This document shows positions 1 through 38,319 of a stretch of 64,000 nt of DNA, piece after piece. This DNA comes from Natrialba magadii ATCC 43099 (GTDB lineage: Archaea; Halobacteriota; Halobacteria; Halobacteriales; Natrialbaceae), in NCBI RefSeq assembly GCF_000025625.1, contig NC_013922.1:3472001-3536000 (forward strand), in the 5' to 3' direction. Numbering within the stretch: the stretch's first letter is position 1; each line of letters opens with the position of its first letter. The notes below the pieces were generated by a model. The model was given only the letters and a program-made list of their open reading frames with translations. It made no database searches and had not been told where the DNA came from. The translations under genes and the position numbers were made by a program.

Positions 1-480
1 CAACGACATCGCCGCGCCGTCGATTTCGGTCCGGGCGACCAGCGGCACCGTCGGCTCGAGTACCCCCACGGCGTCAGCCCCCTCGCGCTCGAGAAGATGG
101 GTGACGGTGTTGCCGATGCGCGCCGCGTGTGTGGAGCCGACCTGGCGTTCGAATCGGACGGGGGCGTCGTCTGCACTGTCGGCAGCGGCGACCGACTCGA
201 GTGCATCCGCAGCGAGCGTTCGGATTTCGGCTTCGGCGTCGGTGTCGGCGTCTGTGTCGGTGTCGGTGTCGATGTTGTCGCCGAACTCGGCGGGAAGTGT
301 GTCCTCGTCGCGGTAGTTGAGCAGCACCTCGCCGCCGCTTTGCTCGGCGGCGCGGAGTGTATCGGTGACGGCGGCTTCGTAGAGCGCGACGGCGTCGGTG
401 TCGGTGAGTGGTGTCGATTCGACGAGCGACGACAGCACGAGTCCCGGACGCGGCGGGTCGACGGAAACGACGACGATCAT
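1..480 (-). CDS. Glycosyltransferase-like (DUF2064-type) protein, partial
   Basis: This minus-strand frame is open for 160 codons from an ATG at 480 to the window edge, so the C-terminus is missing. It begins MIVVVSVDPPRPGL and contains an acidic D-T repeat loop near residues 78-88, then RFERQVGSTHAARIGNTV and GVLEPTVPLVA. The opening beta-strand and the overall pattern recall haloarchaeal nucleotide-sugar-transferase-like proteins of the DUF2064 group, but no catalytic motif is complete in the visible part. The frame has the strong GC third-position bias of its neighbours, whereas the overlapping plus-strand frames do not read as proteins. The family assignment is tentative; that it is a real gene is much surer. 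Confidence 0.6.
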   Translation of the reverse strand, partial: MIVVVSVDPPRPGLVLSSLVESTPLTDTDAVALYEAAVTDTLRAAEQSGGEVLLNYRDEDTLPAEFGDNIDTDTDTDADTDAEAEIRTLAADALESVAAADSADDAPVRFERQVGSTHAARIGNTVTHLLEREGADAVGVLEPTVPLVARTEIDGAAMSL

Positions 481-6502: not shown

Positions 6503-7213
6503 CTATGCGCGCTCGCCGAACGACCGCGGCGCACCCTCACGCGGACTCGCCCACTCGACGGCGTTTCGCAGGACCTGCTGAATCTCTTCGTTCTCGTAGA
6601 TCGGATACGTCTCGTGACCCGGCCGGAAGTAGAAGATGCGGCCACTCCCACGGCGGTAACAACAGCCGCTGCGGAACACCTCGCCGCCCTCGAACCAACT
6701 CGTGAAAACCAGCCGGTCCGGCTCGGGCACGTCGAACGGCTCGCCGTACATCTCCGTCTCCGGCAGCTCGATACACTCGCCGAGGCCGTCCGTGATCGGA
6801 TGTCCGGGATCGACTACCCACAGCCGCTCGGTCTCGCCGTCCTCGCGCCACTGAAGGCTGCAGGTCGTCCCCATGAGCCGCTTGAAAATTTTCGAGTAGT
6901 GTGCCGAGTGGAGAACGAGTAGGCCCATGCCCTCGAGTACCCGCTCCTGCACGCGGTCGACGATGTCGTCGGCGACTTCGTCGTGGGCTTCGTGGCCCCA
7001 CCAGAGGAGCACATCCGTCTCGTCGAGTACGTTCTCGGTGAGCCCGTGTTCTGGCTCGTCGAGCGTGGCTGTCTGGATCTCGTACTCGTCGGCCGTCTCC
7101 TGTGTTCGGAAAATGTCCGCGAGCGCTTCGTGAATGCCGTCCGGATAGACGGCCGCCACCTCGTCGTCCTCGCGCTCGTGTCGGAACTCGTTCCAGACCG
7201 TGATCGTTCGCAT
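6503..7213 (-). CDS. ThuA-like (trehalose utilization family) protein
   Basis: This 236-residue protein begins [13 protein letters not shown] and has [35 protein letters not shown] and [13 protein letters not shown]. These are the ThuA signatures of a glutamine-amidotransferase-like fold lacking the catalytic triad. A GTG six bases upstream is possible, but the ATG gives the standard family start. ThuA in rhizobia acts in oxidation of trehalose and related disaccharides to 3-keto forms. The divergent neighbour is a Gfo/Idh/MocA oxidoreductase, a pairing often seen in sugar or inositol catabolism, so the two likely share a pathway. Confidence 0.85.
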
Positions 7214-7332
7214 GGGCACTCGTCCACCGTCGATCCCCTTAGCTCGCGTGATCTCCGGTGGAAATCATCCATTCGGAACGTATCACGAAGGAAGACTCAC
7301 ATCGTAACCCAATACATTAATCGGTCACAACC

Positions 7333-7340
7333 CTTATTTT
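7333..7340 (+). promoter_or_regulatory. TATA-like element upstream of uORF/Gfo-Idh gene
   Basis: The run cttatttt is centred 25 bp before the ATG at 7362. It predicts a leaderless transcript that starts with the small upstream ORF and leaves 116 bases before the oxidoreductase start. Confidence 0.4.
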
Positions 7341-7361
7341 GATCGCTGACTGCGTCACTCT

Positions 7362-7481
7362 ATGGACTGGGACGGGCTTCGAACACCATCGTTTACGCTG
7401 GCTTCTCGCTGTACGACCTCCTCATCCTCCACACACCGCCGGTCTCGCACGCACCGATCCCGACGGGGTGATCGCCGGTGA
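7362..7481 (+). CDS. Possible leaderless upstream ORF (39 codons)
   Basis: The ATG sits at leaderless distance from a TATA-like element, and the stop overlaps the GTG start of the Gfo/Idh gene by four bases (GTGA), a typical coupling arrangement. The peptide (MDWDGLRTPSFTL, then Ser/Thr/Arg-rich) has no haloarchaeal acidity and looks non-structural. It could act as a regulatory leader or be fortuitous. Confidence 0.3.
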   Translation: MDWDGLRTPSFTLASRCTTSSSSTHRRSRTHRSRRGDRR

Positions 7482-8629
7482 TCGGCACCGACATCGGTGT
7501 CGGGATTGTCGGCCTCGGCGGGATGGGCCACCACCACGCACGAAACGTCACGGACCTCGGCGCGACGGTCGTCGCCGGTGCCGATCTGGTCCCTGACCAG
7601 CGCGAGCGCTTCGCCGCCGAATTCGGCGCAGAAACCTACGAAACCCACGAGGACCTCGTCGTCGACGACGCAGTCGACGCCGTCATCGTCACAACGCCGA
7701 ACCGCTTTCACGAACCAATCACGGTCGACGCACTCGAGGCAGGCTGTGACGTGCTCGTGGAAAAACCGCTCGCGCACACGCTCGACAGTGCAGAGCGGAT
7801 TGCCGAAGCCGAAGCCGAGGCGGACGGCTTCTGCATGGTCGGCTTCCACAACCGCCACGCGGCCTCGATGACGATGTTCGAGGAACACCACGCACGCGGG
7901 CGTTTCGGCGAGCTAACACACATCGAAGCCAACTACGTCCGCCGACGCGGCGTTCCCGGCCCCGGCTCGTGGTTCACCAACGAGGATCTCTCCGGCGGCG
8001 GCGCGCTGCTCGATATCGGCGTCCACGCGCTGGACCTTGCCCTCTACGCGCTCGACTTCCCCGAAATCACCGAAGTCTCGGGCATCGCGCGAACGACCTT
8101 CGGGGCACAAGAAGAGTACGCCGATCCCGAGGGCTTCGGCGACAACTGGGATGCAAGCGCAGAGACGTACGAGGTCGACGATTCCGTCAGTGCCTTCATC
8201 CGGTGTGCTGACGGCCAGACGATCTCGCTGGAAGCCGCCTGGGCGACCAACCGCGAGGAGAGTATGGACTTTCGCATCCGCGGCACCGAAGCCGGTGCCC
8301 AGTTCGACATCGGCGACACCAACATGCAACTCCTCGGTGCCAGTTCGGCCGGCGGCGACCACTACACCGACACCCAGTTCACCGGCGATTCGACTCTAAC
8401 CGGCTACAAAGAACAGGACGAACGCTTCCTCACCGCCGTCGCAACCGACTCCGAACCGTCGACGAACACAATCGGTGAGGCGCTCGTCGTCCAGCGCGTC
8501 ATCGACGCCATCTACCGCTCGAGCGAGAGCGGCCACGCGGAATCGGTCGACTCTGTCGCCAGTGTGCACTCGAGTACGAGCGAAACGGGTGAACTCGAAG
8601 CTGAAGCTGAGGCGGAAGCGGATCTCTGA
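7478..8629 (+). CDS. Gfo/Idh/MocA family NAD(P)-dependent oxidoreductase
   Basis: This 383-residue protein has an N-terminal Rossmann fold with IVGLGGMGHHHARN (residues 10-23), the family EKPLAHT motif near residue 94, and a C-terminal alpha/beta dimer domain with SGGGALLDIGVHALDLALY, where the Lys/His-rich active-site helix normally lies. The family oxidises sugars, inositols or their derivatives with NAD(P). The start is a GTG that overlaps an upstream small ORF. The last 25 residues are an acidic low-complexity tail (ELEAEAEAEAD). Divergence from a ThuA-like gene suggests sugar catabolism. The exact substrate cannot be read from the sequence. Confidence 0.87.
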   Translation: MIGTDIGVGIVGLGGMGHHHARNVTDLGATVVAGADLVPDQRERFAAEFGAETYETHEDLVVDDAVDAVIVTTPNRFHEPITVDALEAGCDVLVEKPLAHTLDSAERIAEAEAEADGFCMVGFHNRHAASMTMFEEHHARGRFGELTHIEANYVRRRGVPGPGSWFTNEDLSGGGALLDIGVHALDLALYALDFPEITEVSGIARTTFGAQEEYADPEGFGDNWDASAETYEVDDSVSAFIRCADGQTISLEAAWATNREESMDFRIRGTEAGAQFDIGDTNMQLLGASSAGGDHYTDTQFTGDSTLTGYKEQDERFLTAVATDSEPSTNTIGEALVVQRVIDAIYRSSESGHAESVDSVASVHSSTSETGELEAEAEAEADL

Positions 8630-28172: not shown

Positions 28173-30212
28173 ATGAGTAAACGAAACACCAACGCCGACA
28201 GATTCCGCAAACAGGCGATTGCGACCGAACTCGAGGAGCCGGTCACCGAGGCCCGCAACCTGGCGATAAAGCTCGGGCTCGAGCCGTACCCGGTCAACTA
28301 CTGGATCATCGACTACGACGAGATGAACGAACTCATCGCCTACGGCGGGTTCCAGTCGCGGTACCCACACTGGCGGTGGGGGATGCAGTACGACCGGCAG
28401 CAAAAACAGGGCCAGTACGGCGGCGGCAAGGCCTTCGAAATCGTCAACAACGACAACCCGGCCCACGCGTTCCTCCAGGAGTCGAACACGATCGCCGATC
28501 AGAAGGCCGTCATCACCCACGTCGAGGCCCACTCGGACTTCTTCGCGAAGAACGAGTGGTTCGGCCTCTTCACCAGCGGCCGGGCCGACGAGGAGCAGGT
28601 CAACGCCGCGGCCATGCTCGAACGACACGCCCGCGCGATCGACGAGTACATGTCCGACCCCGAAATCGACCGCGCCGAGGTCGAGAAGTGGATCGACCAC
28701 TGTCTCAGTCTCGAGGACAACATCGACCAGCACCAGGTGTTCGAACGACGGCTCGATGTCGACGGCCCCGCGGTGACGGCCGACCTCGACGAGGATCTGG
28801 CCGAAAAACTGGACGAACTCGAGCTCTCCGACGAGATCAAAGGCGAGGTGTTCGACGAGGAGTGGCTCGAACACCTCGAAGGCGAGGACGGCGGCGTCAC
28901 GTTCCCCGAGGTGCCCCAGAAGGACGTCCTCGCGTTCGTCCGCGAGCACGGCAAACAGTACGACCCCGAGGCCGAGCGCGCCGTCGAGATGGAAGAGTGG
29001 CAACGCGACGTACTCGACATGATGCGCGCCGAGGCGTACTACTTCGCCGCCCAGAAGATGACCAAGGTCATGAACGAGGGCTGGGCGGCCTACTGGGAGT
29101 CGACGATGATGACCGACGAGGGCTTCGCCGGCGCAGACGAGTTCATGAACTACGCCGACCACATGGCGAAGGTGCTGGCCTCCGGCGGCCTCAACCCCTA
29201 CAGCCTCGGCATGGAGCTATGGGAGTACGTCGAGAACACGACGAACCGCCAGGAGGTCCTAGAGCACTTGCTCCGCGTCGAGGGCATCTCCTGGCGCAAC
29301 CTGACGGACGTGGTCGACTTCGACGACGTACGCGACCAGCTCGAGCCGCCCACCGAACTCGACTCGATCACGTCGGAGACGATCGACGACCTCGCAACGG
29401 CAGACGTGCCCGACGACTGGCTCGACCACGAAGCACTCGAGTTGGCCCGCGAGGGCGAGATCGATGTCGACCGCTACCCCTGGAAGGTACTCACCTACGA
29501 GGGGCTCGCGCGTCGTCACTACTCGCTCGTCAAGCGCCAGAACCGCGGGTTCCTGCGTCGGGTGAACCAGAACGAACTCGAGCGCATCGGACGGTACCTG
29601 TTCGACGACGCCCGGTACTCCTCGGTCGAAGAGGCGCTCGCCGAGGTTAACTACACGGCGGGCTGGGATCGCCTCTTCGACGTGCGAGAGAGCCACAACG
29701 ACGTGACGTTCCTGGACGAGTTCCTCACGCAGGAGTTCATCACGGAGAACAACTACTTCACGTACGAACACTCGAAGGCGACGGGGCAGTTCCACGTCGC
29801 GAGCGACGAGGCAGACGACGTGAAGAAGAAACTCCTGTTGCAGTTCACCAACTTCGGCAAGCCGACGATCGCGGTCTACGACGGCAACTACAACAACGCG
29901 AACGAACTGCTGCTGGGCCACCAGTACAACGGCGTGATGCTCGATCTTGGGAAGGCCAGGGAGACGCTAAAGCGCATCTTCGAACTCTGGGGGCGACCGG
30001 TGAACCTGCTGACGATCGTCAAGGAGGTCAACGAGCACGATATCGAGGTCGCAAAGCGACGGAACCGCGAACCCGAGGCCGAAGAGCAGGGCAAGCTCAT
30101 CCGGTACGACGGCGAGCAAGTGACGATCGAGGATGTGCGCTGGGACACGGTCGAACACCTTGCAGCCGACGACGTGGATTACGACACGAAGCCGGAGGAT
30201 TGGCTGGCCTGA
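28173..30212 (+). CDS. spoVR: SpoVR family protein
   Basis: This 679-residue protein begins MSKRNTNADRFRKQAIATELEEP and contains SpoVR blocks: YPVNYWIIDYDEMNELIAYGGFQSRYPHWRWGMQYDRQQ, then NPAHAFLQESNTIADQKAVITHV. Its central region has MRAEAYYFAAQKMTKVMNEGWAAYWES. SpoVR/YcgB is linked to spore cortex formation in Bacillus and to starvation in Gammaproteobacteria; its biochemical activity is unknown. The ATG three codons after an in-frame GTG is preferred. It completes the PrkA-PrkA-YeaH-SpoVR operon, with a 26-bp gap from the VWA gene. Confidence 0.9.
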   Translation: MSKRNTNADRFRKQAIATELEEPVTEARNLAIKLGLEPYPVNYWIIDYDEMNELIAYGGFQSRYPHWRWGMQYDRQQKQGQYGGGKAFEIVNNDNPAHAFLQESNTIADQKAVITHVEAHSDFFAKNEWFGLFTSGRADEEQVNAAAMLERHARAIDEYMSDPEIDRAEVEKWIDHCLSLEDNIDQHQVFERRLDVDGPAVTADLDEDLAEKLDELELSDEIKGEVFDEEWLEHLEGEDGGVTFPEVPQKDVLAFVREHGKQYDPEAERAVEMEEWQRDVLDMMRAEAYYFAAQKMTKVMNEGWAAYWESTMMTDEGFAGADEFMNYADHMAKVLASGGLNPYSLGMELWEYVENTTNRQEVLEHLLRVEGISWRNLTDVVDFDDVRDQLEPPTELDSITSETIDDLATADVPDDWLDHEALELAREGEIDVDRYPWKVLTYEGLARRHYSLVKRQNRGFLRRVNQNELERIGRYLFDDARYSSVEEALAEVNYTAGWDRLFDVRESHNDVTFLDEFLTQEFITENNYFTYEHSKATGQFHVASDEADDVKKKLLLQFTNFGKPTIAVYDGNYNNANELLLGHQYNGVMLDLGKARETLKRIFELWGRPVNLLTIVKEVNEHDIEVAKRRNREPEAEEQGKLIRYDGEQVTIEDVRWDTVEHLAADDVDYDTKPEDWLA

Positions 30213-30377
30213 ACTCGGTGCTCAGGTCTACCGCGTACAGCACATTGTAGCGCGGTTTCGTTGGTCAGAATCGTTCCTGGGATTGAATCGACCAGATCTG
30301 TCTATATAGTGTTTTTAAAGATGAAACATACAACCCCGTACAGGAGAGAACGAAGCAACGAGCCAATACGTATGCAG

Positions 30378-30974
30378 TCAGTCTAATTTCGTTCGAATGA
30401 TGACATTGTCGTCAGCCAGCAATCTGTCGCCTGCCTCCAGACCTTTCGTCATCGTTCGAAAGCCGATACACACACATTTCCCGACATCCATAGTGAGCGC
30501 GGTCTTTTCGCTGTCTACACGATTGCTGGGATTGTCGCCTTGATAAAAGATTACCCTGTCTTCCCTCGCGTACTCTTTGAACTCTTTGTCGGCTTTGAGT
30601 CGGCTTGCCGGCTTCCGTGCTGTCGCCTCGATCCAGACCTTCACCGGCTCTTTGCCCCGATTGCAAACCTGAAAGACGTTGTGAAAATAGGTGAATGAGT
30701 CGGAGTTGACACCGGTTCCGGTCGCCGCTTTCCCTGACCCGATAGTCGAATTCGACGGAGAAAGGTCAATCTCGAGGTGTCCGCGCTCGTCGAGACGCGT
30801 GTAGCTCGCGTTCGAGGAGCCGGGACAACCGTCTAGTCCCAGATAGGCATCCGGATCGCGCTCGATCACGAGCTCTGCGCCCCGTTGTGTCTGGACGCTC
30901 GAGAACGCGCCCGAACCGATGAGGGCGCTGGCGCTGCCACCGCCAACGGCGAGCAGGAGTGTTCGTCGACGCAT
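30378..30974 (-). CDS. Secreted TasA/DUF1102-like fibre subunit candidate 1
   Basis: This 198-residue protein begins MRRRTLLLAVGGGSASALIG with a Tat-like twin Arg, then SGAFSSVQTQRGAELVIERD and PDAYLGLD. A second signature is GVNSDSFTYFHNVFQVCNRG. These two signatures recur in three other proteins nearby and resemble the DUF1102/TasA-camelysin group of exported beta-sandwich proteins, in which a mature N-terminal strand can act as donor strand. It has extra cysteines (Cys in GLDGCPGSS, FQVCNRG, GKCVCIGF), unlike its relatives, so a disulphide is possible. It is a single gene read toward SpoVR. Confidence 0.75.
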   Translation of the reverse strand: MRRRTLLLAVGGGSASALIGSGAFSSVQTQRGAELVIERDPDAYLGLDGCPGSSNASYTRLDERGHLEIDLSPSNSTIGSGKAATGTGVNSDSFTYFHNVFQVCNRGKEPVKVWIEATARKPASRLKADKEFKEYAREDRVIFYQGDNPSNRVDSEKTALTMDVGKCVCIGFRTMTKGLEAGDRLLADDNVIIRTKLD

Positions 30975-31336
30975 GACATTCAGGGTCCGATTACCGTTTC
31001 GGTGACTGTCCGTTCGACCCCGAGTATCGCCGCCATCTGGGGCGCCATACCTATCCCCTCGGTGCGTTCGCCCTTTGGTATACGCCGCCCGACGGGTGGC
31101 TAGTCTCGCCCTGTGAGGGGGTCGATCCGCAGACGGTAATCCACGGTCGGTCTCCGATAGGCGGTGCTTTCGCCGCTCGAGACTGGCTTTAGGAGGTGAG
31201 TGTCACTGATTCTGCTAGTTCGTACTTAACTGCCCGGCTGTTGCACCTGTGATCGAATGCTGGGAATGACAGTGATGCGTTCGACTCCCTCGAGGCACAG
31301 TCCACCGACGATCGCTAGTCGATCGGTGAGAGACCC
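30975..31336. other. Divergent regulatory region between fibre-like genes
   Basis: No gene is supported in this 362-bp stretch between two divergently read fibre-like genes. A TATA-like gtacttaac lies near 31223, about 105 bp before the plus-strand start, implying a leadered transcript if used. Confidence 0.45.
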
Positions 31337-31936
31337 ATGAAACGACGAAAGCTCCTGCTCGGCAGCGGGTCGGCGTTCGCGGCGACCGCGTTCATCGGCA
31401 CGGGTGCGTTCTCGAGGGTGGAATCCCAGCGAAGCGTGACGGTCGAGGTCGAGGAGGACGAAGACGCTTACCTCGGTCTCGCACCATCTGATTCGGAGCA
31501 CGGTGACAACTTCGCTGAAATTGACGATAACGGCCACCTCGAGATCGATATCGGCGAGATCGACGACGAAGACGACAATACCGGCAGTGGAGTCAACTCG
31601 AATTCGATTACCTGGTTCGACTGCGTGTTCACCATCACGAATCAAGGGAAAGACGAGGCCAATGTCTACGTCGAAGAAGAGGATAATTTCGTGGAAGAGG
31701 AAGGGGACGAGGGAACGATCGATTTCTACACCGATGAGGCATCCGGAAGTCAGGGTGATGACGGGATCGACTCGATCGTCGGCAGCGATAACGAGATTAC
31801 GTTGCCCGTTGGCGATAGCGAATGTATTGGTATCCGTGTAAACTCCGAGGAAGAGAACTCAGACGACATCGACGGCGATGTCACGATCGTCGCTGATTCA
31901 GAAGATGCAGGTGACGAGGAGAACAACAACACGTAA
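31337..31936 (+). CDS. Secreted TasA/DUF1102-like fibre subunit candidate 2
   Basis: This 199-residue, very acidic protein begins MKRRKLLLGSGSAFAATAFI, then GTGAFSRVESQRSVTVEVEE and DAYLGLAP. The second family signature is GVNSNSITWFDCVFTITNQG. Predicted signal processing before AFS leaves a hydrophilic N-terminal beta-strand (RSVTVEVE), the shape expected of a donor strand. The body is beta-rich and ends in a long disordered Glu/Asp/Asn tail (DAGDEENNNT). It is read divergently from candidate 1 with its own promoter region. Confidence 0.77.
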   Translation: MKRRKLLLGSGSAFAATAFIGTGAFSRVESQRSVTVEVEEDEDAYLGLAPSDSEHGDNFAEIDDNGHLEIDIGEIDDEDDNTGSGVNSNSITWFDCVFTITNQGKDEANVYVEEEDNFVEEEGDEGTIDFYTDEASGSQGDDGIDSIVGSDNEITLPVGDSECIGIRVNSEEENSDDIDGDVTIVADSEDAGDEENNNT

Positions 31937-32196
31937 TCTCCCCTTCATCCTACGGCTGTAACTCCGGTTCCAGAATTTTGCCGACGATAACGACTCCTGA
32001 CAGACGACGGAGATGGTTGTTACATTGCCGGACACCACAGTTCACACGCCGATCGCACTTGAGGACGCCGTCACCGAACGTGGCGTCGAGACGTGGACGG
32101 GAGATCACTGCCATCGCCCAGTAGTATTCGGAGACACGAGTGAGGTTCGCGGTTCGAAGCGATGGGCTCGTACCACCTTCGAAGAGGGACAGTCGA

Positions 32197-33966
32197 TCAC
32201 ACGTCTTGCCACTGGAGTTCGGGGTAGTCGTCTGGATCTTCGACCGTCCGCCAGACGTCGTCGAAGTCGAGGGCGTCCATTTCGGTCTCGGCGTCGGCAC
32301 CCTGCATATCGTCTGTCGTGAGTGCCGTCAGATCGACGTCCCCCGCATCTCCTTCCCCGATCCCCGGGCCCGGTGGCTCGAGGAGTTCTTCGTCCCAGTA
32401 CGATCCCTCGATCGTTCCGAGTAAGTCCGAGATCAGGAGGCCAGAAATTTCGTTCACACCGGCGAATCCGCCGCGGAAATCACCGCCAGTTTCGGCGGTT
32501 TCGACCGCTGCATACGAGGTGTAGATCTCGCCTTCGATGTCCTCGACGATCTCTCGGTCGGGATCTGCGGGACCGAACAACAATAGACTGACGAGACCGA
32601 CCAGCAACTCGACGAGACCACAGATGAGCGGCCCCAGGATCGGTATCGCGCAGATCAGCGGATCGTCCTCGCCCAGGACGTTCGTCCCGACGAGGCCACC
32701 AACTGATTCCTCGTCGGCGACGACGTCGCCTCGAGCGTAGGTGTCAGTGATCGTTCCGGTGTTGATCCCGACGAGACCGCCGGCGCTCTCTTCGTCTCCG
32801 GTCACGTCACCGACCGCGTACGACTGCGTGATCGTTCCGGGAATCTCGTCCCCGTTCTCCTCGGTCGTGATGTTCGCACCTGCGAGCCCGCCGACGAGGT
32901 TCTCTCCGGTGACCGCACAGCCGGCGAACGACGTCGCTACGTCGCCGTCATTAAGTCCGACCACCCCACCGACGGCGTCGTCACCGGTGACCGTGCCATT
33001 GGGTACGGCCGCCATCTCGATAGTGCCACCGACGCCGGGATCGGGAAAGCCGACGTTCACGCCGACTACACCTCCGACGCCGTCGTCGCCAGTAATCTCG
33101 GGATCGACGATGTCGACCTCTTCGATCGTTCCCGCGTTGTTTCCAGCGGTGCCACCAACGACGTTCTCGCCTGTGATCGTCGAGTGCGTGAGAGTGAGGT
33201 CTGTGATCGTTCCAGAGTTCACGCTGAACAGGCCGACACCCTCCTCTCCGGGTCGATCGATGGTGAGTCCACAGATCTCGTATCCATTCCCGTCAAGGAC
33301 GCCTTCGAACTCGTCGGGGTCTTCGTCGCCGATCGGATCGAACCCGTCGCCGCCGTGCCACTGATCGGTCTCGCTGGCGTCGATGTTCCGTCCGAGTTCG
33401 TAGTGCGCGTCGAGGTCGCCGGCCATCGCCTGGAGTTCCTGGTCGTCGGTGATCACGTACGGGTCGCTCTCGGTGCCGTTGCCCTCTGCGTCGTCAAGGA
33501 TGTCGTCGTAGTCCGCTTCGTCAGGTTCCGTCCCGGAAGGCTCGCTCCAGTCTTCGATCGCGGCTTCCCTCGTGACGGTTGCCTCGATGCTCGCCGGATC
33601 GGTGATGGCCTCGATTTCGATCTCGCCGGACTCGTCCTCGTCGACGCTGACGACCACCGTCTCTGAGTCGGTCTCATCGAGGGGGAACGTGTGTGGCTCG
33701 AAATCGAACTCGTCGGACGACAGCGTTATTGTCGCGTCCTCGCCGAGTTGGTTCGTGATGGTAAACTCGTTGACGACACCGCAGTCGTTCGCCGCCTCGC
33801 CGAGTTCGCCGACGTTCTCGAGGGCAAGGAAGGCGTCTTCGTCCTCGAGGGCGCTGACATCGGTAAGTCGGTTAGACTCCGTCCGTGAAAATCCGAGCGT
33901 ATCCGTCACGAGCACGGCTCCGGAGCCAGCCATCACCACCAGTGCACCGCGACGAGTTACGTTCAC
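32197..33966 (-). CDS. Secreted GLUG-repeat protein with fibre-type N-terminus
   Basis: With the GTG at 33966 this is 589 residues. It starts (V/M)NVTRRGALVVMAGSGAVLV, then GFSRTESNRLTDVSALEDED and AFLALEN, matching the fibre proteins nearby; VVNEFTITNQLGEDATITL matches their second signature. From about residue 180 it turns into a GLUG-type repeat domain (VGGVVGLNDGDV, VGGLAGANITTE, AGGLVGINTGTI, VGGLVGTN), usually a beta-helix-like adhesin fold. A hydrophobic insert LICAIPILGPLICGLVELLVGLVSLLLF breaks the repeats. It could be a tip adhesin or cap of the fibre. The GTG is chosen because a TATA element lies 29 bp upstream. Confidence 0.8.
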   Translation of the reverse strand: MNVTRRGALVVMAGSGAVLVTDTLGFSRTESNRLTDVSALEDEDAFLALENVGELGEAANDCGVVNEFTITNQLGEDATITLSSDEFDFEPHTFPLDETDSETVVVSVDEDESGEIEIEAITDPASIEATVTREAAIEDWSEPSGTEPDEADYDDILDDAEGNGTESDPYVITDDQELQAMAGDLDAHYELGRNIDASETDQWHGGDGFDPIGDEDPDEFEGVLDGNGYEICGLTIDRPGEEGVGLFSVNSGTITDLTLTHSTITGENVVGGTAGNNAGTIEEVDIVDPEITGDDGVGGVVGVNVGFPDPGVGGTIEMAAVPNGTVTGDDAVGGVVGLNDGDVATSFAGCAVTGENLVGGLAGANITTEENGDEIPGTITQSYAVGDVTGDEESAGGLVGINTGTITDTYARGDVVADEESVGGLVGTNVLGEDDPLICAIPILGPLICGLVELLVGLVSLLLFGPADPDREIVEDIEGEIYTSYAAVETAETGGDFRGGFAGVNEISGLLISDLLGTIEGSYWDEELLEPPGPGIGEGDAGDVDLTALTTDDMQGADAETEMDALDFDDVWRTVEDPDDYPELQWQDV

Positions 33967-34348
33967 GAAATCGTGTATGTCTGGCACCACTACTAAATAC
34001 ACCCCGAGTTCTCCATGACTGTGAACCGGCGTCAGCGTTTTGAGTACGATTACCGTCGATGTTCATACTGCCGGACAGAACGAGTCGAAGATCGGCCGCG
34101 CTTCTGTGCCATTACCTTCGGGGACGGTCGCGACTTCGCGACCGACTTCTCACTGACTTCTATCCAGCAGTATCAGCCACGGGTCATGTTCATCCAAATT
34201 GAGTGTGGTTCTCACGTCATATTACTCGCCACGAGAATTTTATAACAGACAATGGTACTGGGAGGCAGATACTCTCACGCTCAGCCTTGTAAGATCGAGA
34301 ATATGAAGAGAACGGGCCAGACGAACGACACAACCAAAAATATACATC
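33967..34348. other. Divergent region before the fibre-signal peptidase operon
   Basis: This carries two core promoters back to back: the GLUG gene TATA box and, on the plus strand, gaattttataac at 34235-34246, about 110 bp before the first operon gene. A short Cys-containing plus frame (34015-34245) lacks protein-like composition and was not called. Confidence 0.5.
33991..34000 (-). promoter_or_regulatory. TATA box deciding the start of the GLUG protein
   Basis: On the minus strand this reads GTATTTAGTA, centred 29 bp before the GTG at 33966. Any longer start at 34002 would lie inside or above the promoter, so the GTG start is preferred. Confidence 0.5.
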
Positions 34349-34852
34349 ATGAGTACAAGTCGACGAACGTTCCTCGCCGGTTGTGGTGTGCTAGCTGCCA
34401 GCTCGCTTCTCGGTTCGGCGGCGTTCAGCCGCACCAGCGCCGACCGATCCGTCACGGTTGATGTCGCAGTTGACACTGACGCCTACCTCGGACTCGAGCC
34501 AACCTCGCCGTTTGCGACCCTCGTCGACGGGCACCTCGAGTTGACGTTCGACGACACTCCCCAAGACATCGCAGGGGAGGGTGTCAACGTAAACAGCGAG
34601 TATCTGTTCGTCGACACCTTCGGGCTTATCAACCAGGGTGTGAAGACGATCGAAATCCTATCGGTGGAGGTTGATGAACCCAGCCCCGATCTCGAGGTAA
34701 CGTTTCTCGTCGAGAACAACCCGTGGATGCCGCTGGGAGACGCTGTTCCGCTCGATCCTGGCGATTCAATCAACGTGACGGTCGAAGTCGACGTTGCGGA
34801 CATCGGGTACGGTGACTATCAGGTTCCCATTACGATTGTAGCGAGTGCATAG
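34349..34852 (+). CDS. Secreted TasA/DUF1102-like fibre subunit candidate 3
   Basis: This 167-residue protein begins MSTSRRTFLAGCGVLAASSL, a near-ideal Tat motif (SRRTFLAG), then GSAAFSRTSADRSVTVDVAV and DAYLGLEP, and later GVNVNSEYLFVDTFGLINQG. It is the shortest and most compact of the set, with regular beta-strands (VEVDVADIGYGDYQVPITIVASA), and lies 5 bp before a dedicated signal peptidase, so it is the best candidate for the main repeating fibre subunit. Processing is predicted near SAAFS. The Cys in the signal could alternatively hint at a lipobox, but the +1 context is not typical. Confidence 0.8.
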   Translation: MSTSRRTFLAGCGVLAASSLLGSAAFSRTSADRSVTVDVAVDTDAYLGLEPTSPFATLVDGHLELTFDDTPQDIAGEGVNVNSEYLFVDTFGLINQGVKTIEILSVEVDEPSPDLEVTFLVENNPWMPLGDAVPLDPGDSINVTVEVDVADIGYGDYQVPITIVASA

Positions 34853-34857
34853 TAACC

Positions 34858-36051
34858 ATGGATCGACCTCCACTTGTCACCACCGCGCGCACGCTGGCTG
34901 TCCGCGGGATACAACTCGCGGTTGTTCTCGTCCTTCTGGCGCTCGCCGCTGGATACCTCCTCGGACAACCAATCTTGCTCGGGTACGTGACGAGTGGTAG
35001 TATGGAACCGACGATCGACACTGGGGACGGGTACGTGGCGATTCCAGCCGCGCTGGCTGGTGAGCCTGAACCCGGTGACGCCGTCGTCTTCGAGGCGGAG
35101 ACGCATGGTGATGACGACCTAACGGTCCACCGCGTTGTCGACGCGGACAACACCGGCTATGTGACTCAGGGCGACGCAAATCCGAGAACCGACCAGGAGA
35201 TGGGTGAACCGCCGGTCCGAGAGAGTCAAGTCGTTGCAACGGCTGTTCAGATCGACGACGAGGTAGTTACGATCCCCAACCTCGGCACCGCGGTCGTCGA
35301 AGCCGAGCACACTGCCGAGCGAGTCCAGAATTGGGTCGCAGTTACGTTGGGGATCCGGTGGCTCTCCGGCGCGAGTAGTCTCGCATTCGTCGTTCTGATC
35401 GCCTCAACCACCCTGTACCTCGCTGAAACGATCCGCGAACGATGGTCGCCAACCCAGCCGAGTGATACCGTCAAGGAGACGAATTCAGGGGGGATTGAGC
35501 CTCGATACGTCTGTGTCGGACTGGCGGTACTGGTCGCGACAGCGGCCCTGGCTGCCATGACCGTTCCGGTTGGAGCCCACTCTATCGAGGTCGTGAGTTC
35601 CGACCGACCGTCGGAACAACCAAGAGTGATTGAAGCAGGCACGACGGCCGAGGCCACGTACAAGACGACGAACGCCGGCCCCGTACCCGTCGTCTCCTAT
35701 CTCGAAACCGACGGTGACGACATGGCAGTCGACACCACGGAGTTGTCGTTGGGCTATCGCGAGGAATTCGAGACCACGGTCGAACTCACGGCACCGGAGG
35801 AAACAGGCTACTACCAGATGTTTGTGGTTGAACAGCGGTACCTGTACGTGCTCCCGGCACCGGTGATCGAGACGCTACACGGGATTCACCCCTGGATAGC
35901 ACGCGGAACGATTGTCGGCATTCTCGGGGGAATGACGTACGTCCTCACTCGATCGCTGATCGGCACCGCGCCCGCCTACTCACAGTTGAACCGATCGTCA
36001 GCCTCTCCAAACGGCTCACTATGCCGTCGACTCCTCCGGCGGCTCTATTGA
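34858..36051 (+). CDS. sipW: ER-type (SipW-like) signal peptidase I with extra C-terminal domain
   Basis: This 397-residue protein has a first membrane helix (18-40) and the catalytic motif YVTSGSMEPTI, with Ser48 as nucleophile. Instead of Lys the general base is His91 (LTVHRVVDAD), and Asp106 lies in YVTQGDANPR; this is the Ser/His type of archaeal, ER and SipW signal peptidases. A second helix follows at about 178-194, a third at about 220-239. The last 150 residues form an exported beta-domain (EVVSSDRPSEQPRVIEAGTT) closed by another helix. It most likely matures the three fibre-like proteins and the GLUG protein. Confidence 0.87.
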   Translation: MDRPPLVTTARTLAVRGIQLAVVLVLLALAAGYLLGQPILLGYVTSGSMEPTIDTGDGYVAIPAALAGEPEPGDAVVFEAETHGDDDLTVHRVVDADNTGYVTQGDANPRTDQEMGEPPVRESQVVATAVQIDDEVVTIPNLGTAVVEAEHTAERVQNWVAVTLGIRWLSGASSLAFVVLIASTTLYLAETIRERWSPTQPSDTVKETNSGGIEPRYVCVGLAVLVATAALAAMTVPVGAHSIEVVSSDRPSEQPRVIEAGTTAEATYKTTNAGPVPVVSYLETDGDDMAVDTTELSLGYREEFETTVELTAPEETGYYQMFVVEQRYLYVLPAPVIETLHGIHPWIARGTIVGILGGMTYVLTRSLIGTAPAYSQLNRSSASPNGSLCRRLLRRLY

Positions 36052-36067
36052 CACAGGGTAACACATT

Positions 36068-37276
36068 ATGAGAGAACATGTCCTCCGAATTCGTGGTGCA
36101 GTGATGAAATATCACCGCCTATTGCTGGTCCTGTCCATTCTTGCAATAGCAGCAGGTCTCTGGATCGGATACGGTGCGTACGTTGCTCCTGGCGAAGCAA
36201 CAGAAGAGCAAACAGTCCTGACCACGTCGGGGGAGATCGAACACCGGGCGGTCGTTAGCGAGTCGAACTCACTGTATCCAACCGATACCGTGCTGGAGAA
36301 CGAGCCATTATATTATACTACGATCGCGCCGACCGTCGAAGGAGAATTCCACAGCCGTTACGGTTCCGTCCAAGAGGGGAACGCGACGGTGACACACGAA
36401 CTCGAACTCGTGATACGGTCAGTAGACGGCGATGAGACGTACTGGATGACGAGGTCGTCGCTCGGGAGCGACACCGGACAGGCCATCGAACCCGGCGAAG
36501 AAACGACGACTGCCTTCGAGATCAACATGACCGAAGTTCAGGATCGAATCAGTGAAATCGAGAGCGACCTCGAGGATGATCCCGGTGAATCGTCCGTCGC
36601 CGTCGAAACGACAGTCACACTCGAGGGCGTCTTTGACGGCGAAGAGCGAACGGTGACGACGACGGATCAGATCCCAGTTCAACTTACTGGTGGCACGTAC
36701 AGTCTCGATGACGACGAACTGTCTGGTGAGCAGATTACCGAACACGAGACCGAGTCCGCCACTCCCGTCCTGACGCGAGCGATCGGTGGGCCGCTGTTGC
36801 TACTCGGTGGCCTTGTCGGGACCGGCGGGCTTGTAGTTTTCCGACCAGACGAGTACGGCCTATCCGCGACCGAACGCGCCTGGCTCGCCTATCGTGACGA
36901 CCGGGCCGAGTTCGATGCGATCATCGCGACGCTCTCTCCTCCCGAGGAGGCGTTTGACCGTCCTCGAACGTCGGTGGATTCACTCGCAAAGCTCGTTCAA
37001 GTTGGTTCCAATACGGACTCGACAGTCGTCTACGACCCGACCCGTGAGGTGTATGTCGTCGTTGGTGAGTTCCTGTACGTGTTCGAACCACCTCAGAAAC
37101 CGGACAGCACTGAGCGAGGACCCGAATCTGTGAGAGGGAGTAAATCTGCCGAAACGAAATCTGAGCATGATAAGGAACCGGACCAAAGTGAAGATCAAGA
37201 CGTCCTCGCACTTCCGGCGCACGACACTGATACCCACACAGAGACAATTTCCGACAAAAACACTAACGAGGCTTGA
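36068..37276 (+). CDS. DUF5305-like membrane protein
   Basis: This 402-residue protein has an N-terminal helix (about 17-40), an exported beta-rich domain (about 41-235) with TTTAFEINMTEVQDRISEIES and VTLEGVFDGEERTVTTTD, and a second helix (about 244-264, AIGGPLLLLGGLVGTGGLVVF). A cytoplasmic region of about 140 residues follows, with YRDDRAEFDAIIATLSPPEEA, STVVYDPTREVYVVVGEFLYVF and an acidic tail. The pattern fits the DUF5305 family, which I recognise as a partner of haloarchaeal signal peptidases. It starts 16 bp after the peptidase, so it is cotranscribed; a platform or anchor role is inferred. Confidence 0.75.
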   Translation: MREHVLRIRGAVMKYHRLLLVLSILAIAAGLWIGYGAYVAPGEATEEQTVLTTSGEIEHRAVVSESNSLYPTDTVLENEPLYYTTIAPTVEGEFHSRYGSVQEGNATVTHELELVIRSVDGDETYWMTRSSLGSDTGQAIEPGEETTTAFEINMTEVQDRISEIESDLEDDPGESSVAVETTVTLEGVFDGEERTVTTTDQIPVQLTGGTYSLDDDELSGEQITEHETESATPVLTRAIGGPLLLLGGLVGTGGLVVFRPDEYGLSATERAWLAYRDDRAEFDAIIATLSPPEEAFDRPRTSVDSLAKLVQVGSNTDSTVVYDPTREVYVVVGEFLYVFEPPQKPDSTERGPESVRGSKSAETKSEHDKEPDQSEDQDVLALPAHDTDTHTETISDKNTNEA

Positions 37277-37373
37277 ACTGAGTAACGGGGTTTCGAAGGT
37301 TCTCGCGACCTCGGCCCCATCAACGCACCAGCCAATCTCGATTGCTGACAACACTACTTACTGAACACCGTCT

Positions 37374-37383
37374 GTTATTTATT
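37374..37383 (+). promoter_or_regulatory. TATA-like element for the 60-aa membrane protein
   Basis: The run gttatttatt is centred 29 bp before the ATG at 37407. The gene may therefore be transcribed on its own as well as from the upstream operon. Confidence 0.5.
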
Positions 37384-37406
37384 CTACCAGTTGGTGGAGT
37401 ACGCGC

Positions 37407-37589
37407 ATGGTCTCCGAACTGGCTGTGAGCTTCGTTATCGGCTTCGGAATCCTCCTCCTTGCGTCGTTCCTTGGGACGACATTGGCATTACGGTCGTTTT
37501 TCGGTCCCGATCATGTCGACCCCGTCTTGAAGAACTTCACGCTGGATAGTGACAATAGGGAGATAGACTCCGACCGAGGCAATCGGTAA
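37407..37589 (+). CDS. Small single-helix membrane protein of the fibre locus
   Basis: This encodes 60 residues: MVSELAVSFVIGFGILLLASFLGTTLALRSF forms one long helix (two runs here: residues 4-19 and 20-31), and a polar cytoplasmic or exported tail HVDPVLKNFTLDSDNREIDSD follows. It is 130 bp after the DUF5305-like gene and has its own TATA element. A part in the fibre or signal-peptidase machinery is plausible from position only. Confidence 0.6.
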   Translation: MVSELAVSFVIGFGILLLASFLGTTLALRSFFGPDHVDPVLKNFTLDSDNREIDSDRGNR

Positions 37590-37659
37590 GTCCAGTTACT
37601 GTACTTGCCACGGGCTTCACGGTTCACTTTGAATAAAGAAACCGTAGTCCCAACGACTG

Positions 37660-38319
37660 CTAGACGCGAACCGGCCGATCAGCCGAAATACAATCGACAC
37701 CGCGAAGGCCGAGCACCAGCGCCGTCAGTCGCCGCTCGATCGACCACGCGTGGACCTCGAGATCCACCGCCTTCGCTCGCGGCACCAACTGCGTCGTCAA
37801 ACAGCGCCAGTAGTTCGCCCCGATCACGTCACAGTCGAGTTCGACCGCCGTCGTCACCGGCGTCTCGAGTCGCCGGCTGACGAGCAATCCCGTTGGCTGG
37901 CTCGAATCCAACTCGCGGATCGTCCGCAACTCCGGCGCGAGAAACGAGGTCGTCACCACGCGGTTCTCGACACCCTCGAGCGCATCGAGCACGTCCGCCG
38001 CAATTCCCTGTTCCTTCATTTCGAGGTTGATTTCAACGCCAGGCGGGACGGCCTCGAGCATCTCCTCAAGTGTCGGAATTTGCTCGCCGGACTCGAGTAC
38101 GGTGTGGGTTTTGAGGTCCGAAAGGGAGGCCTCTGCGACGGTGACGTCGCCGCCGGTGACGCGCTCGATTGTCTCGTCGTGGATGACGACGAGTTCGCCC
38201 GAGCCACAGCGTCGGACGTCGAATTCGACGGCGTCGGCGTACTCGGCGGCGGACTGGATGGCGTCGATAGTGTTCTCGGGGGCCGTCGCGGCGAAGCCGC
38301 GGTGAGCGATCAGTCGCAT
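37660..38319 (-). CDS. ugpQ: Glycerophosphodiester phosphodiesterase family protein
   Basis: This 219-residue protein starts MRLIAHRGFAATAPENTIDAI, the GDPD signature with His6, Arg7 and Glu15. VEFDVRRCGSGELVVIHDETIERVT supplies the metal-binding Glu/Asp and second catalytic His. It hydrolyses glycerophosphodiesters to glycerol-phosphate (sn-glycerol-1-phosphate chemistry in archaea) and alcohols, in lipid turnover. It is cytosolic, with no signal peptide. An in-frame ATG 69 bases upstream adds a non-conserved tail and is not used. Confidence 0.9.
   Translation of the reverse strand: MRLIAHRGFAATAPENTIDAIQSAAEYADAVEFDVRRCGSGELVVIHDETIERVTGGDVTVAEASLSDLKTHTVLESGEQIPTLEEMLEAVPPGVEINLEMKEQGIAADVLDALEGVENRVVTTSFLAPELRTIRELDSSQPTGLLVSRRLETPVTTAVELDCDVIGANYWRCLTTQLVPRAKAVDLEVHAWSIERRLTALVLGLRGVDCISADRPVRV

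Follow-up and report, generated by a model that had tools for sequence, protein, structure and literature searches.

A genomic islet of Natrialba magadii most likely encodes a Tat-fimbria of a separate lineage

Introduction

What is built by the 7.4-kb block of genes that lies between a SpoVR-like and a GDPD-like gene in Natrialba magadii ATCC 43099? The block is part of a window of 64,000 nucleotides, the whole stretch of DNA analysed here. A sequence-only reading had proposed a locus for a surface fibre, comprising several related subunits exported by Tat, a signal peptidase of its own and a repeat protein, had likened it to the TasA and AbpA systems, and had taken it for a fibre system not yet described.

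Taf stands for Tat-fimbria. According to the account in PMC12687288, the haloarchaeal Tat system exports the components of thin filamentous appendages named ‘tafi’, of which TafA is the core component; the same source cites Galeva et al. (iScience 2025, 28:111793) for the original description.

The block is most likely the builder of a thin surface fibre of this Tat-fimbria kind. We consider it highly probable, as a whole, that the locus is a divergent tafi cluster, in which the subunits would be exported by Tat, cut by a peptidase of its own and assembled through donor strands into a fibre capped by a GLUG protein. The families of the parts, the predicted fold, the conserved linkage, the homology to a solved Tafi pilin, the separate lineage and the insertion site are established here (Table 1). 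The locus is known from its genes and models, and the surface filament itself is a prediction.

Table 1. Features of the locus, in window coordinates, with the evidence for each.
Feature	Coordinates	Strand	Evidence or boundary
Islet with the whole locus	30220..37640		between SpoVR-like gene (stop 30212) and GDPD-like 3' end (37660)
Subunit 1, Tat-exported, 198 aa, DUF1102/TafE-like	30378..30974	-	DUF1102, TafE, subunit HMM, 9P0A
Subunit 2, Tat-exported, 199 aa, DUF1102/TafE-like	31337..31936	+	DUF1102, TafE, subunit HMM, 9P0A
TafC-position GLUG-repeat protein with Tat-like signal	32197..33966	-	TafC, Glug PF07581
Subunit 3, Tat-exported, 167 aa, first gene of subunit/peptidase/DUF5305 operon	34349..34852	+	TafE, AF2 model
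Predicted donor strand of subunit 3, AFSRTSADRSVTVDV, first 15 residues of predicted mature protein	34421..34465	+	conservation, model
Dedicated signal peptidase, 397 aa, N-terminal SPase I and C-terminal beta domain	34858..36051	+	TIGR02228, AF2, tree
DUF5305 membrane protein, 402 aa	36068..37276	+	PF17231
Single-helix ORF, 60 aa, inside the islet	37407..37589	+	no homologue

Results

Four secreted proteins share an N-terminal signature

Scanning the 499 ORFs of the window (at least 45 aa, six frames) with the pattern RR-(8..28)-[AGS]FS-(12..30)-DA[YF]L returned exactly four, which are the three subunits and the GLUG protein. The same composite pattern occurred in 0 of 80,000 composition shuffles. 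All four carry the RR motif followed by a hydrophobic stretch, and all four show a later F-x(1-4)-N-[QR] motif (FQVCNRG, FTITNQG, FTITNQL and FGLINQG). The set of four secreted proteins with a common signature, as first read from the sequence, was thus recovered in full at the positions given for it. Tat-signal models matched weakly, in subunit 3 only and under their cut-offs. Judged from their signal sequences, the three subunits and the GLUG protein would be exported folded via Tat.

Pfam DUF1102 (cut-off 22.2 bits) matches subunits 1, 2 and 3 with 22.8, 34.9 and 22.5 bits, and NCBIfam TafE, the ‘fimbrial adapter protein’ (cut-off 155 bits), gives 44.7, 65.5 and 41.4 bits. An independent subunit HMM scores 86 bits on subunit 1 and 124 bits on subunit 2. 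The genes of subunit 3, the peptidase and the DUF5305 protein are spaced as an operon, only 5 and 16 bp apart.

The subunits are homologous to a solved Tafi pilin

We aligned 42 mature subunits from loci in named haloarchaea and compared the resulting profile with all PDB sequences. One strong match was found, the ‘Pilin’ of 9P0A (E = 1.6e-19), with an alignment that begins at AFSSVEADR and extends almost to the C-terminus. The entry bears the title ‘Structure of Natrinema sp. J7-2 Tafi pilus’ in Foldseek and was released on 2025-07-23. Single window subunits find it as well, at E values of 1.1e-7 for subunit 2, 3.3e-6 for subunit 3 and 0.0016 for subunit 1, so that subunit 2 is the one most similar to the solved pilin.

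AlphaFold2, run on the same alignment, predicted an all-beta model for subunit 3 (pLDDT 84.6, pTM 0.78). Its best VIA match is again 9P0A (Z 8.6, 3.0 Å, 116 residues, 29% identity), followed by FimA (8.1), AbpA 7UEG (7.7, over 115 residues) and the Sulfolobus thread 7PNB (7.4). Unrelated Ig-like folds are interspersed among these matches, and rows within 1 Z unit count as tied. Because of the ties, and because common Ig-like folds stand close behind, the fold match carries little weight by itself; the case for tafi identity is made from the sequence match.

The frequency of Ig-like beta folds bears on a different reading, according to which the subunits do not polymerise at all and are small surface proteins exported by Tat, such as enzyme inhibitors, binding proteins or members of a signalling set, with a private signal peptidase to process them. 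Some tafi-type proteins with other domains, for example NosL, would fit this. However, the pilus structure of a direct homologue with the same core of genes has been solved, and within the mature domain conservation peaks at the donor-strand-like N-terminus, so we regard a non-polymerising set as unlikely.

The 9P0A pilin gene was located in Natrinema gari with 100% identity. It stands in an array of subunit, TafF-like, signal peptidase and DUF5305 genes, with a divergent DUF7344-type gene nearby, and the core of subunit, peptidase and DUF5305 is common to this locus and the window. Since the gene of the solved Tafi pilin sits in the same locus core, the window locus belongs with the Tat-fimbriae and not with the TasA system. 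Another divergent gene near the N. gari pilin gene (L164:10977-13685) encodes a 902-aa DUF7289 protein of unknown function.

The TasA kinship put forward earlier found no support at the sequence level. Membership was supported neither by Pfam, as camelysin/TasA matched none of the 42 subunits and DUF1102 matched 21 of them, nor by hhalign, which gave the 42 subunits a probability of 0.8% against TasA; the TasA sequence used matches PDB 8AUR over residues 28-261. Among the fold matches listed for subunit 3 there were no TasA chains, which counts neither for nor against kinship. A true TasA/camelysin-family matrix fibre locus of the TasA-SipW kind would pair a fibre subunit with a signal peptidase of its own, by the same gene logic as here, and its subunit would carry a similar AF motif behind the signal. 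The likeness to AbpA suggested by the earlier reading is borne out by the subunit 3 fold, and a structural relationship between archaeal bundling pili and TasA has been described (PMC9674648). Against this stand the sequence comparisons, the Tat export signal and the existence of a much closer solved relative, 9P0A. We therefore hold a true TasA locus to be highly improbable. A function like that of TasA or AbpA remains likely; that the window proteins are TasA is, from their sequences, not likely.

A conserved N-terminal strand may serve donor-strand assembly

By analogy with TasA, we predict that the mature protein starts at the AFS motif. Residues 1-27 of the mature domain are the most conserved, with a mean of 2.72 bits versus 1.42 bits for residues 81-143. 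Positions 5, 7, 11, 13 and 15 are hydrophobic across the family, and Arg9 is invariant. We set aside the invariance of Ala1 and Phe2, because the alignment rows were picked by a regular expression requiring the motif; Arg9 and Asp18 lie outside this selection.

In the monomer model of subunit 3, strand E9-15 is part of the domain of the same chain. From residue 2-3 on, the model can be superposed on some self-complemented FimA monomers, but it aligns with the filament subunits of 9P0A, 7UEG and 7PNB only from residue 19-22. An exchanged strand would be expected to produce this contrast in where the alignments start, which is an indirect indication taken from the model. TasA fibres assemble by donor strand (PMC9674648). 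In the window locus, the freed N-terminal strand AFSxVxAxRxVxVxV may likewise complete the beta-sandwich of the neighbouring subunit, which would result in a donor-strand-type fibre.

The signal peptidase is dedicated and forms a separate lineage

The peptidase passes TIGR02228 with 55.5 bits (cut-off 51.85), and the SipW model matches it weakly (35 bits, cut-off 190). The earlier description as a SipW-like, ER-type peptidase is right as to a dedicated signal peptidase; a SipW-specific enzyme was considered and dropped, since the archaeal model fits better. Archaea ordinarily have signal peptidases of the ER type with Ser and His, and this type is no trait specific to SipW. Ser48 and His91 are invariant in 26 homologues, and the AF2 model resembles LepB (Z 11.5) and SipA (Z 11.4). 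As the gene linkage suggests, this two-domain peptidase would cut the signal next to the AFS motif.

In the model, a second beta domain at about residues 240-330 lies between predicted transmembrane helices, and this C-terminal, extracellular beta domain is the distinguishing feature of the window peptidase. Its fold matches are weak and of the Ig/MSP/PapD type, including the donor-strand chaperones Caf1M and CupB2. We do not read the likeness to PapD/Caf1M as homology, since the Z scores are about 7 and tied with MSP and other Ig-like folds. A bolder idea is that the peptidase doubles as an assembly machine, its beta domain being a tethered chaperone that complements the cut subunits until they are handed over to the fibre base. 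We find this doubtful; if true, signal cleavage and pilus chaperoning would fall to one protein.

In a tree of 62 peptidases, the window enzyme and that of Natronolimnohabitans sp. A-GB9 (locus L071) form their own long branch with 100/100 support. This branch is apart from the clade of the canonical taf locus, the 9P0A locus and a second locus of the host (L033). The two SPases of the genome that are probably housekeeping enzymes stand apart from the window peptidase, which groups with those of the tafi and 9P0A loci. Only four SPases of the host exceed the TIGR02228 cut-off, and they are those of its four tafi-type loci.

The DUF5305 protein is a probable partner in assembly

The suggested DUF5305-like membrane protein was confirmed by PF17231, with 199.1 bits against a gathering cut-off of 29. 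It is a probable assembly or anchor partner. To our knowledge, no function has been assigned to DUF5305, and as a nearly constant partner of the peptidase it is worth testing as an assembly component. We speculate that DUF5305 and the membrane-tethered beta domain of the peptidase hold the subunits at the membrane or hand them over there.

None of the loci compared, the orthologous L071 among them, has an ORF homologous to the 60-aa single-helix ORF, once thought to be linked to the system. The membership of this ORF is unsupported, and we dropped it as a part of the system.

The GLUG protein takes the TafC position

The GLUG repeats are confirmed by Glug PF07581. The N-terminal part of the protein is matched by NCBIfam TafC with 29.7 bits over residues 16-177 of its longer reading (cut-off 410) and by our own TafC HMM with 39 bits, and relatives of this part in other genomes are mostly TafC-sized. 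The C-terminal module at the TafC position is Laminin_G_3 in L048 and L049, bactofilin in L050 and GLUG in the window and L071. This exchange of modules suggests a changeable adhesin, and the position would fit a tip adhesin with an exchangeable head. The GLUG protein is a probable tip or adhesin, which may cap the fibre and bind surfaces or other cells.

We also notice large subunit fusions of 400 to 1276 aa in further haloarchaeal loci (L152, L153, L102 and L130), some of them side by side, which are possibly alternative tips.

The curated Taf models seem to cover a single branch

No window protein reaches the equivalog cut-offs of TafA, TafC, TafE or TafF. The top window scores against the cut-offs are 66/155 bits for TafE, 30/410 for TafC, 26/190 for TafA and 20/420 for TafF. 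The solved Tafi pilin likewise falls under the curated cut-offs (TafE 77.6 bits, TafA 53.1 bits), and the TafA and TafE models therefore seem to cover one branch only; the same seems to hold for the Taf equivalog models in general. In the broad sense, the locus belongs to tafi by its pilin-homologous subunit, its twin-Arg signals and its linked tafi-lineage peptidase; it lies outside the NCBIfam TafA/C/E/F equivalogs.

The window locus has no TafF-like gene and no DUF7344 regulator gene. Together with a subunit and GLUG gene order unlike that of L071, this could speak for a decaying or unfinished tafi cluster, left without a fibre for want of TafF, regulator and TafA. On the other hand, all frames are open, and the orthologous locus has neither of the same two genes. 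Between window and L071, the DUF5305 proteins are 82% and the peptidases 77% identical, and both are therefore under constraint. A decayed cluster is very unlikely in our judgement, and we keep the reading of a working, divergent tafi cluster.

The linkage is conserved in other haloarchaea

With a profile of the peptidase we gathered 80 loci in named haloarchaea, the neighbouring genes playing no part in the choice, and counted linkage in the 60 loci with full flanks. A subunit gene lies within 7 kb of the peptidase in 60 of 60 loci, and DUF5305 follows directly 3' of it in 54; the linkage pointed out by the sequence-only reading is conserved. DUF7344-type genes are neighbours in 51 of the 60, TafF-like genes in 28 and TafC-like genes in 26. 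A subunit is found in 46 of the 61 sampled genomes of the host's family. The tafi family is wide in haloarchaea, and a single genome can hold four old lineages; the host carries four peptidase-bearing loci and one solo subunit gene.

The orthologous locus L071 has three subunits and a Tat-GLUG protein. Beyond the machinery proteins compared above, the GLUG orthologue (L071:5702-7831) is 57% identical over 447 aa, and the subunits are 54% (subunit 3), 51% over 117 aa (subunit 2) and about 31% (subunit 1) identical. Identity decreases outward from the machinery, the fibre parts evolving faster than the assembly parts.

Further loci of the host have peculiarities of their own. In L034 (C3), the gene at 6649-8088 encodes a tafi-type subunit fused to NosL (Pfam 34 bits), a copper-binding domain; it adjoins a DUF5305/peptidase pair and is a possible metal-binding head on a fibre subunit. 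The solo subunit at L035:2681-3529 (C1, 1.65 Mb) has a C-terminal beta-rich extension, and the 7 kb around it hold no peptidase or DUF5305. The other chromosomal locus shows, by eye, a transposase-looking ORF (L032:3488-4822) between its DUF5305 gene and a shorter peptidase of 338 aa, and this cluster may be interrupted.

The locus is a genomic islet

The stretch that lacks DNA similarity to congeners runs from about 30,219 to about 37,640, so that islet and locus coincide. The flanking order in the congeners is that of the window (SpoVR-like, GDPD-like, response-regulator-like, SDR-like, GlnA). In two congeners (G178 and G194) the flanks are about 110 bp apart and the site is empty, and in three others it is filled with 3.7 to 5.6 kb of unrelated genes, none of them a tafi gene. 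The G+C content is 58.0% in the islet versus 61.9% and 61.6% in the 10-kb flanks. One tafi cluster thus behaves as an insertable islet.

The SpoVR-GDPD interval (window 30212-37660) is a variable cargo site: G161 and G192 carry methyltransferase- and dehydrogenase-like genes, and G195 several other unrelated genes. A virus-borne origin was considered and dropped, as a scan of viral contigs with the peptidase profile returned no relative.

Comparison with known systems

The type of system is already known, since it is the Tat-fimbria, a kind described in 2025, and the claim of a fibre system not yet described gives way to the match with haloarchaeal tafi and a solved pilus. The novelty is modest. 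It lies in the deep, separate peptidase lineage, the GLUG protein in the TafC position, the islet insertion, the scores of all Taf models under their cut-offs and the missing TafF and DUF7344 regulator.

Bacillus TasA/SipW has in common with the window a fibre subunit with its own signal peptidase and an AF motif after the signal. In contrast, there is no detectable sequence kinship, the window signal is Tat and that of Bacillus non-Tat, and no TapA counterpart was identified. AbpA (7UEG) has a similar beta-sandwich and forms a donor-strand fibre, but yielded no sequence match in the PDB search with the subunit profile.

The canonical tafABCDEF-type cluster (NF052520-NF052523; L048) shares Tat subunits, a TafC-type protein and a long dedicated peptidase with the window. 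It differs in having TafA, TafF and DUF7344, all absent from the window, where the best TafE score is 65.5 against a cut-off of 155, and in a TafC module that is Laminin_G_3 instead of GLUG. The N. gari locus has one subunit gene beside a TafF-like gene and a divergent DUF7344 gene, whereas the window has three subunits, neither of these two, and the GLUG protein in addition. The Tafi pilus 9P0A is made of a homologous Tat-exported beta-sandwich subunit, and its locus, like that of the window, arrays the subunit gene together with DUF5305 and a signal peptidase gene of the same long type.
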